Made by a program: the position numbers and the translations under genes
Shown: piece after piece, positions 4,328 through 5,589 of the stretch
How positions within the stretch are numbered: position 1 is the stretch's first letter
Layout: each line of letters starts with the position of its first letter
Notes under the pieces: model-generated
Told to the model about the DNA's origin: nothing
Databases searched by the model: none
Seen by the model: only the letters and a program-made list of their open reading frames with translations
NCBI GenBank assembly: GCA_007050995.1
Contig: VJOU01000026.1
Location: 1 to 38,023 of the forward strand
Direction: 5' to 3'
DNA length: 38,023 nucleotides
Source of the DNA: Glycocaulis profundi
Lineage (GTDB): Bacteria > Pseudomonadota > Alphaproteobacteria > Caulobacterales > Maricaulaceae

Positions 4328-5513
4328 AAATTAGAACGGGAAGTCTTTATCAGACGAAGAATTCGCTTCCGTTATCTCTTTTCCGGAAAATTCTAACCTC
4401 TTTCCAGTAGCAGCCTCAAGATATCGTTTGAACCAATTACCCCTATTATGTATGCCATTGCAATTATGAAGCTGATCGTTGCGGTAATACCCTTCCACAA
4501 TTAAACGAAACTCTCTATCATTTAGCCTATCTGTGAAATCGACCAAGGATTGCAGCCTAGTCATGGCGTCAGAATAATTAGCGGAACCTATAAAAGAGTC
4601 AATCAAAGATGCCTTTACTCTACTTTCGTGTCCAACTTCTTTTATTATTATTTGCTTTAGTCTATGAATTTCAGATTCCACAGCCTCATACGGAATTTTT
4701 ATTGCCTGCTTATTCGATATAAAACCCCGGGGGTCCACTTTGCCGGTCTTCAAAATCACGATTGGAATGTTACGCGCCAGCGCGAAACCAACCTCTTGAT
4801 TGGTCCATACACTTTCATGAAATTCGTCTGTCAATAGCACAAGCATTACCTCCATTGTTAGGAGGCCATTCAAAATCTCTTTCTGCCACTCCCGCATTGG
4901 TTTGATTGCATCATGAGCTACGAACGATGAAACCCCTACTGGATCAAGCAAAGATGCGATTGTATTTGCAAGCTCCTTATCGCCATCACGGTGGCTGATA
5001 AAAAGGCGCAGCGCGTTTCCCCTCCACAGACCCACATCTTCGGGCCTAGCAATGGGCTCCATACTGAACGGCACGCCTGCCTGGTATTCTGGGTCAGCCT
5101 CAAAATAAGGCCCTATCGAGAAAGCCCTAACATACTCATTCTCAATGTCTGGATATACTTTATTCAAATCAGCTCGTATAGATTCAAATAATTCGGATTG
5201 CTTATCGAGATCAATCAACGCCATTAAATCATCAGAAACAAAAAGCCTCACATCGTGCCCATAGGTCCCACCATTCCAATTATCAAACTCCGTCTCAGGC
5301 TCGATATACACAACCGACTCTTCAATTAGCCTGCAAATATCATGCTTTCCCTTACGCTCATAATGGCCTCTCAAGCGCCGGAGTGCCGGCAAAATTTTGG
5401 GGACCAGAGCAAAATCATCCGCCATGCCAATCCCCAGCCGCACAAATTTTCAACTGCTCACGCGCAAGGCAGCACGATAGCACTTACTGCGGGCATCATA
5501 AATTTAGGAGAAA
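4328..5513. mobile_element. Putative one-gene island at the 3' end of tRNA-Thr
   Basis: This segment is visibly AT-rich, with AT-ending codons and runs such as ATTATTATTTGC, whereas both flanks are strongly GC-rich. It starts right after the SDR stop and ends at the encoded CCA of tRNA-Thr, a typical integration target. It holds one gene, for a TIR-domain protein. I found no integrase and no second copy of the tRNA 3' end near 4330, so transfer is inferred from composition and location only. Confidence 0.45.
4331..5425 (-). CDS. TIR-domain protein, candidate NADase anti-phage effector
   Basis: The ATG at 5425 gives 364 aa. It follows a GGGGAT-like ribosome site; a GTG at 5443 would add six residues but has none. 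Residues about 139-227 look like a TIR domain: L-R-L-F-I-S-H-R-D-G-D at 139-149, a W180-x-x-E183-I helix where TIR NADases carry the catalytic Glu, then L-L-T-D-E-F near 197-202 and S-x-W-T-N-Q-E-V-G-F-A near 205-215. TIR domains of this kind usually cleave NAD+ or make signalling nucleotides in phage defence. The first ~135 residues contain D-N-W-N-G-G-T-Y-G-H at 48-57, which I cannot assign. Residues ~269-339 form a helical tail with paired Asn/Gln and Gly. No membrane segment or signal peptide is visible, so it is probably cytoplasmic. No partner gene is adjacent, so it is not an obvious Thoeris or CBASS operon. The NADase role is inference. Confidence 0.8.
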   Translation of the reverse strand: MADDFALVPKILPALRRLRGHYERKGKHDICRLIEESVVYIEPETEFDNWNGGTYGHDVRLFVSDDLMALIDLDKQSELFESIRADLNKVYPDIENEYVRAFSIGPYFEADPEYQAGVPFSMEPIARPEDVGLWRGNALRLFISHRDGDKELANTIASLLDPVGVSSFVAHDAIKPMREWQKEILNGLLTMEVMLVLLTDEFHESVWTNQEVGFALARNIPIVILKTGKVDPRGFISNKQAIKIPYEAVESEIHRLKQIIIKEVGHESRVKASLIDSFIGSANYSDAMTRLQSLVDFTDRLNDREFRLIVEGYYRNDQLHNCNGIHNRGNWFKRYLEAATGKRLEFSGKEITEANSSSDKDFPF

Positions 5514-5589
5514 TGGTGCCGCTTGCGTGACTCGAACACGCGACCTACGCATTACGAATGCGTTGCTCTACCAGCTGAGCTAAAGCGGC
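5514..5589 (-). tRNA. tRNA-Thr (anticodon CGT)
   Basis: Read on the minus strand, bases 5589-5583 (GCCGCTT) pair with 5524-5518 (AAGCGGC). A D-arm with AGCTCAGCTGGTAGAGC and a T-arm with GTTCGAGTC are present. The anticodon loop TTCGTAA sits on an ACGCA/TGCGT stem, giving CGT (bases 5554-5556), which reads the Thr codon ACG. Discriminator A and CCA are encoded (5514-5516 plus 5517). The adjacent TIR gene begins 88 nt beyond its 3' end on the same strand. Confidence 0.97.

Follow-up and report, generated by a model that had tools for sequence, protein, structure and literature searches.

A candidate single-gene TIR defence system next to tRNA-Thr in Glycocaulis profundi

The single protein SpbK of Bacillus subtilis binds the phage portal protein through its N-terminal domain, after which its TIR domains assemble, NAD+ is cleaved, and the infection aborts (PMC12847820). 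TIR proteins of Thoeris systems are described as sensing capsid proteins and making a signal (PMC12578639). For the NADase AbTIR, the motif consists of W204 and E208, D167 is needed for NADase activity, and the motif tryptophan is needed for the cyclic product (PMC11374754). PD-T7-3, an anti-phage system of Escherichia coli (PMC9519451), is listed with a HEPN domain (PMC10952713). As for where defence genes reside in E. coli, 18 of 41 hotspots lie in tRNA loci; many islands at these loci retain integrase or recombinase genes, and hotspot 37 is reported to have no detectable mobile element in 68.0% of cases (PMC10121019). Here, we describe a TIR gene of Glycocaulis profundi located at the 3' end of tRNA-Thr. 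Judging from its sequence, it is a candidate for single-gene defence and is probably functional. The window, i.e., the whole stretch of 38,023 nucleotides that was analyzed, is one complete contig (VJOU01000026.1).

The TIR gene and its protein

The TIR gene lies between an SDR-family gene and the 3' end of tRNA-Thr (Table 1), and the open reading frame, the Pfam TIR_2 match, and the tRNA call all agree with this placement, which the preliminary description of the locus had given. Its stop is separated from that of the SDR gene by 3 nt, and 88 nt lie between its start and the tRNA 3' end (distance 89). The longer form of the frame starts with GTG (4331–5443, minus strand, 370 aa); the ATG at 5425 is the likelier start, because the alignment of homologues begins there and a GGGGA run precedes it. 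Five promoter-like sites were found in 4250–5700, none of them inside the tRNA–TIR gap, and no terminator-like site was found in this interval.

Table 1. Coordinates of features at the TIR locus, numbered along the window
Feature	Position	Strand	Basis
SDR-family gene	3608..4327	+	Pfam
Cargo slot, SDR gene to tRNA 3' end	4328..5513	.	Site comparison in relatives
TIR gene, 364 aa from ATG	4331..5425	-	Open frame, Pfam TIR_2, homologues align from ATG
C-terminal mainly helical domain, about residues 246-364	4331..4690	-	Weak match to PD-T7-3 C-terminus
TIR domain	4691..5002	-	Pfam TIR_2, PDB sequence match, fold matches
W-TNQ-E motif, W207 and E211 (putative catalytic glutamate)	4793..4807	-	Aligned with AbTIR W204/E208
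N-terminal domain, residues 1-134, candidate sensor	5024..5425	-	Predicted model, pLDDT 80
tRNA-Thr (CGT), intact	5514..5589	-	3' end faces TIR start
LigT-like (2'-5' RNA ligase family) gene	5678..6235	-	Flank on tRNA 5' side in the window's genome

The strongly different base composition claimed for the gene was borne out. Its G+C content was 0.441 (0.439 at the third codon position), whereas nine neighbouring genes had 0.65–0.74 (0.86–0.93 at the third position). Outside the gene, 695 overlapping windows of the same length had a mean of 0.693 (sd 0.021) and a minimum of 0.637, and the contig as a whole had 69% against 44% for the gene.

The Pfam TIR_2 match of the protein scored 46.1 bits (cut-off, 28 bits; E 8.6e-12), which places it among TIR-domain proteins; the genome contained no other TIR_2 match. 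The predicted model of the whole protein (mean pLDDT 77.6, pTM 0.55) showed three parts: an N-domain, the TIR domain, and a C-domain that is mostly helical. By sequence, the NADase AbTIR was the best match in the PDB (E 9.2e-07); the fold matches of the model included AbTIR (E 0.0013) and, at E ≤ 0.001, the TIR domains of SARM1 and SpbK. Foldseek returned TIR matches at probability 1.00, and most of the 50 fold matches listed were TIR proteins or nucleotide N-glycosidases.

The preliminary description took a W-x-x-E helix with E183 as the NADase motif, which proved to be wrong. In sequence alignments, W207-TNQ-E211 pairs with WTNYE of AbTIR (W204/E208), and it was invariant in all six aligned family members; W180-QK-E183 was likewise invariant in six homologues. 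By alignment, the protein has the conserved WxxxE glutamate of TIR NADases, and E211, in W207-TNQ-E211 and not in W180-QK-E183, should be the catalytic residue. The position of AbTIR D167 aligned with Ala170 of the window protein (numbering offset derived from W204).

The N-domain was modelled as two helices, two strands, a helix, and a strand. In the window protein, it had no Pfam match up to E 10 and no PDB fold match at E ≤ 0.001; weaker fold matches, mainly the C-domains of MamB and MamM (E 0.012 and up), were not used to identify it. As a query on its own, it was present in 2 of 398 genomes of the phylum, each time ahead of a TIR domain of this family, and it matched a Burkholderia plasmid at E 0.08; the C-domain alone had no match among plasmids. 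A Pfam identity for the N- and C-domains was also rejected, since the ten pieces scanned gave sub-cut-off matches only (up to E 10).

The tRNA-Thr site in related genomes

The tRNA-Thr query matched in all 61 genomes searched, and the tRNA-Thr(CGT) region was compared in 20 of the 60 relatives, chosen by tRNA identity and mostly belonging to the same family. Four genomes of other families with 91–92% tRNA identity (G042, G046, G057, and G058) and lower-scoring genomes were left out. The tRNA itself was identical at 76 of 76 bases in seven relatives. On its 5' side, hemY was nearby in 17 of the 20 relatives, with a uridine-kinase-family gene in between in 14 of those; among the three relatives lacking hemY there, two have less than 250 nt of sequence and G007 has 2.9 kb without it (the names hemY, uridine-kinase-family, and AMP-binding-enzyme come from Pfam on one example each). 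The content of the 3' side varied across relatives. In 700-nt windows that start no more than 1.5 kb from the tRNA, G+C fell by at least 0.15 on the 3' side of 6 of the 21 genomes (counting the window); no such drop was seen on the 5' side of the 19 genomes where it was measurable (largest drop, 0.05). Because the 5' side is mostly constant while the 3' side is variable or empty, we regard the 3' end of tRNA-Thr as a cargo hotspot.

Within the genus, the 3' slot is bounded by a conserved AMP-binding-enzyme gene (Pfam), and an SDR homologue with 60–65% identity flanks it in G033 as well as in all five other members of the genus. Two genomes of the genus have an empty slot, with 232 nt (G002) and 178 nt (G005) between the tRNA 3' end and the AMP-binding-enzyme gene. 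In G001, the slot holds a different TIR protein (290 aa, 31% identical, 43% G+C), and in G003 a Fic protein (PADLOC SoFic match, 6.4e-38; 44% G+C). That of G004 (L014, 9214–9819) codes for a protein of 201 aa whose winged-helix match is borderline (HTH_45, 26.0 vs 25.5 bits; 41% G+C), and that of G033 (L016, 9242–9730) for a 162-aa protein without a known family (52% G+C). These AT-rich single genes of G004 and G033 are themselves candidate defence genes.

In other relatives, the 3' side carried a type I-C CRISPR-Cas locus (Cas1, Cas2, Cas4, Cas7, and Csd1 in G015), a DpnII/MboI-type nuclease gene directly 3' of the tRNA (G021; L030, 371–2373; GC 0.54), or a cytosine-methyltransferase gene about 2.9 kb away (G007). 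The nuclease gene of G021 overlaps a gene for 370 aa without a Pfam or PADLOC match, and the two possibly form a two-gene system. G028 has a phage-type integrase gene 3' of the tRNA, at a distance of 4.25 kb. On the 5' side, it has a 39-nt piece matching the 5' half of the tRNA, which is therefore not a duplicated 3' end of the usual kind. Among the other 3' flanks, of whose genes a few were searched against libraries, no clear defence gene was recognized adjoining the tRNA. The proposed comparison of this junction thus yielded empty sites in G002 and G005 and other cargo elsewhere, some of it for defence. The refuting case, in which every relative would carry the gene at a matching composition, did not arise: its full-length form was found in none of the other five genomes of the genus. 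The earlier suggestion of horizontal transfer was thus supported, as was tRNA-Thr as a hotspot.

Relative to the empty site of G002, homology of G001, G003, and G004 ended 2–10 nt past the tRNA and resumed at aligned positions 150–160. The cargo therefore replaces about 110–120 nt of the empty site instead of being cleanly inserted; the other empty site, in G005, differs from G002 in part of the replaced stretch. The window locus is rearranged, so its own empty site is not directly readable: the order from SDR gene to tRNA is kept, the AMP-binding-enzyme gene is absent (closest match in the genome, 35%), and the tRNA adjoins the LigT-like gene instead of the uridine-kinase-family gene, which is on a different contig. 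In G001, G002, and G004, the distance between the LigT gene and the tRNA is about 14, 15, and 17 kb, respectively, and in G003 it is about 99 kb; in G005, the two are on separate contigs. An inversion could explain the gene order of the window.

As the preliminary description had noted, no sign of an integrase or of a duplicated tRNA end was seen. When up to 3 mismatches were allowed, the 38 kb contained no further copy of the tRNA end, and the repeat search for an integration footprint found no words of 9 or more bases shared with the 3 kb beyond the tRNA. Neither an integrase nor a transposase was found among the 20 window proteins scanned with Pfam (a set that leaves out rimP, nusA, ylxR, infB, and 16.7–18.2 kb). 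In these respects, the window does not have the hallmarks of a tRNA-integrated mobile element.

Two further gene groups in the window are worth recording. Directly upstream of the SDR gene, an apparent operon (321–3603) encodes Ku, LigD (phosphoesterase and ligase), and a separate LigD primase-polymerase (Pfam); these Ku/LigD genes had no match in the retrieved tRNA regions of relatives. Additionally, three serine-hydrolase-family genes (Pfam Beta-lactamase, PF00144) lie within 8 kb (30210–37855), with a TonB-dependent receptor gene between them.

Homologues of the TIR gene and their neighbours

Full-length homologues were found in Thioalkalivibrio (55% identical), two Acidithiobacillus (53% and 56%), a Chloroflexi MAG (54%), and Glaciecola (47%). 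One genome of the same bacterial family as the window, G835, also carries a full-length homologue; at 58% identity, it is barely closer than that of Chloroflexi. In the tree, the window sequence grouped with G835 and Thioalkalivibrio without firm support (93/94). This grouping and the identities across distant hosts fit transfer between distant hosts. At E ≤ 1e-20, 5 of 398 genomes in the phylum had a match to the family, near full length only in the window's genome and G074. Matches were also found in 2 of 385 genomes of the class and, at E ≤ 1e-8, in 7 of 137 genomes of the bacterial family, two of them weak (own genome included in each count). Judged by these alignments, it appears to be a rare family with an N-domain + TIR + C-domain architecture whose members, 47–58% identical, reach Chloroflexi. 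A virus-borne origin was considered and rejected, as no phage matched at E 1e-5 and none of 27 candidate stretches in viral contigs was confirmed. Counter to this, the Glaciecola member adjoins phage genes (L008, 2141–7065): it comes immediately after a CI-like repressor and a phage transposase, as if at the end of a Mu-like prophage.

We examined the neighbours of the TIR gene at 15 loci (window included), with 315 ORFs within 4 kb; the count omits the G009 copy (a contig-end fragment, L002/L049), the weak L004, L054, and L055, and five partial plasmid matches (H2–H6). No partner gene recurred across all 15 loci. Type I restriction subunits occurred at three (L005, L009, and L045), and response-regulator-type genes, named by reading, at another three (L008, L056, and L058); apart from one further similarity between L048 and L058, no other neighbour types were common to any two loci. 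Restriction or abortive-infection genes were near the TIR gene at 5 of the 15 loci, where it is beside an HNH_2 gene at L005, a GmrSD_N gene at L009, and an MrcB_N gene at L056, adjoins an AbiU/AIPR gene and a type II-like nuclease at L006, and has a restriction operon around it at L045. At nine loci, including the window, no restriction, abortive-infection, or SIR2 gene was recognized among the neighbours, which were partly searched against libraries.

At L045 (3046–11183, G074), the TIR gene sits between hsdS and hsdR within a type I restriction operon (hsdM, hsdS, TIR, hsdR), and the hsdS ORF bears an N-terminal nucleotidyltransferase (Polbeta) domain. In the Chloroflexi MAG (L007, 3165–5376), a SIR2_2 gene precedes the TIR gene, with 88 nt from its end to the TIR ATG, an arrangement that resembles a SIR2–TIR pair.

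A tRNA 3' end lay within 150 nt of the TIR gene at 2 of the 14 other loci, next to tRNA-Thr in G001 (distance 29) and tRNA-Ser in G418 (distance 135), compared with roughly 0.04 loci expected if there are about 50 tRNA genes per 3 Mb; G001 was found via homology among close relatives and is therefore not fully independent of the window. A tRNA-Ile(aat) 398 nt from the TIR gene of L007 was not counted as firm because of an odd ARAGORN call. The G418 gene (L047, 7638–8746) is a short lone TIR relative (294 aa, GC 0.52 in a locus of 0.60) whose layout at tRNA-Ser is like that of the window.

Interpretation and comparison with known systems

We consider it fairly probable that the TIR gene is a horizontally acquired, stand-alone anti-phage gene carried as cargo of a tRNA-Thr hotspot and encoding a single-protein TIR NADase that acts via abortive infection. 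The TIR_2 domain with its invariant WxxxE, the likeness to the TIR domains of AbTIR, SARM1, and SpbK, the lack of a constant partner, and the variable slot speak for this, as do the restriction or abortive-infection genes near it at 5 of the 15 loci and the constraint read from dN (see below). At rest, the protein would be an inactive monomer or dimer. During infection, the N-terminal domain, the C-terminal domain, or both may bind a phage component as the trigger, whereupon the TIR domains would cluster and composite active sites would form around E211. NAD+ would then be split, and the infected cell would halt growth or die before phage release, as described for SpbK. The window protein has the parts for such an SpbK-like scheme, with different sensor candidates. 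Some features point the other way: the alanine at the position of AbTIR D167 may weigh against NADase activity, the adjacent SIR2 gene at 1 of 15 loci would fit a two-gene system, the nine loci at which no restriction, abortive-infection, or SIR2 gene was recognized in the partly searched neighbourhood lend no support, and the conserved W207 could leave room for a signalling role.

Such a role defines the main rival, a Thoeris-like scheme: having sensed phage, the TIR protein would produce a cyclic ADP-ribose signal, and this would switch on an effector whose gene is elsewhere or has been lost from the site. The conserved W207 and the SIR2_2 gene upstream of the Chloroflexi homologue would agree with it, as would the matches that each of the 11 members of alignment A2 gave to the models for Thoeris type III ThcB4 and retron-TIR. 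However, membership in either of these was rejected for the window and G001 members, which scored below both cut-offs; for the ThcB4 equivalog (NF058526), the window protein reached 53.8 bits against 220, over residues 145–272 only, the match spanning the TIR region from 145 in the 370-aa protein and from 128 in the 375-position model. Moreover, no effector gene stands beside the TIR gene or recurs across the 15 loci: its neighbours are the SDR and LigT-like genes, with neither a SIR2–STALD nor a macro-domain gene adjoining, which upholds the earlier statement that a Thoeris or CBASS partner is missing. A STALD domain was not found in the window's genome either, and the same search was equally silent in 14 of 14 control genomes, so this negative shows little. 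On this evidence, we regard distant-effector signalling as unlikely. As for CBASS or Pycsar, TIR_2 was the sole above-cut-off Pfam match of the protein, with no SAVED, STING, or cyclase; the SAVED_TIR model was matched at positions 15–110 of 404, and no cyclase was found among the 20 window proteins scanned.

The gene could also be a leftover of an integrative element at the tRNA-Thr site that is drifting without function in this host. The integrase and the tRNA 5'-half piece at the same tRNA in G028 would suit such an origin, as would a window lacking a second tRNA end and, among the proteins scanned, an integrase. The open frame and the conserved motifs speak against drift, and dN to two homologues was 0.36 and 0.38 while dS was not computable (NG86 = −1; YN00 without a value), which we read as saturation and hence as constraint on the gene; a functionless remnant is quite improbable. 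Less probable still is a TIR protein with another chemistry or role, such as a different nucleotide N-glycosidase or a non-catalytic scaffold. The alanine at the D167 position, DNPH1/Rcl and MilB among the fold matches, and a sub-cut-off match to nucleoside deoxyribosyltransferases would be in line with it, but that match is far below its cut-off (13.4 vs 28.8 bits) while TIR_2 exceeds its own, and WxxxE is invariant in 6 of 6 members.

If the stand-alone defence reading is true, the locus would contribute a one-gene TIR defence architecture that is rare and widely scattered, together with a small, well-bounded hotspot (empty or holding TIR, Fic, or genes without a known family), in which the unassigned cargo of sister species would be candidate defence genes. 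It would also offer a simple case of how one-gene cargo enters tRNA sites without an integrase. A bolder version, which we put forward tentatively and with some doubt, is that this is a new single-protein TIR immune family whose N-domain and PD-T7-3-like C-domain are two phage-sensing modules, that it travels as one-gene cargo into tRNA 3' ends without its own integrase, and that the tRNA-Thr slot is an exchangeable dock for single defence genes, refilled by recombination via the constant flanks.

Neither TIR defence nor a tRNA hotspot is new in kind; the TIR family with its two extra domains is unnamed in the libraries searched: PADLOC, NCBIfam, and Pfam name it only as a TIR domain or via sub-cut-off kin. 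Within the literature searches made, we did not find the family named, nor anything on "ThcB" or type III Thoeris. Like SpbK, the window gene encodes a single protein with an N-terminal domain ahead of the TIR domain, and the TIR fold matches SpbK (9phb). Conversely, the sequence match is weak and confined to the TIR region (PDB, E 0.016; PADLOC spbK, 0.0068), the window protein has an extra C-domain, the searches revealed no kinship of the N-domains, and no ICE was recognized in the window; kinship with SpbK including the N-terminal domain was thus not found. Thoeris ThsB/ThcB4 proteins (NCBIfam NF058526, PADLOC PDLC00434) share the broad TIR type, a similar length, and the central TIR position, but here no effector gene adjoins. 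With AbTIR (PDB 8g83, 7uxu), the protein shares WTNQE aligned with WTNYE, whereas D167 is replaced by alanine and the PDB match spans the TIR region alone. The C-terminal ~100 residues of PD-T7-3 (PADLOC PDLC04108) match the C-domain in 3 of 3 full-length members scanned, weakly (E 3.4e-4, 9.9e-4, and 5e-3), and the short G001 relative had no match; the effector domain is TIR in the window protein and HEPN in PD-T7-3. This weak likeness hints at a module common to different effectors. Like the tRNA hotspots of E. coli, the site combines variable defence cargo with constant flanks; unlike them, the cargo in the window is one gene.
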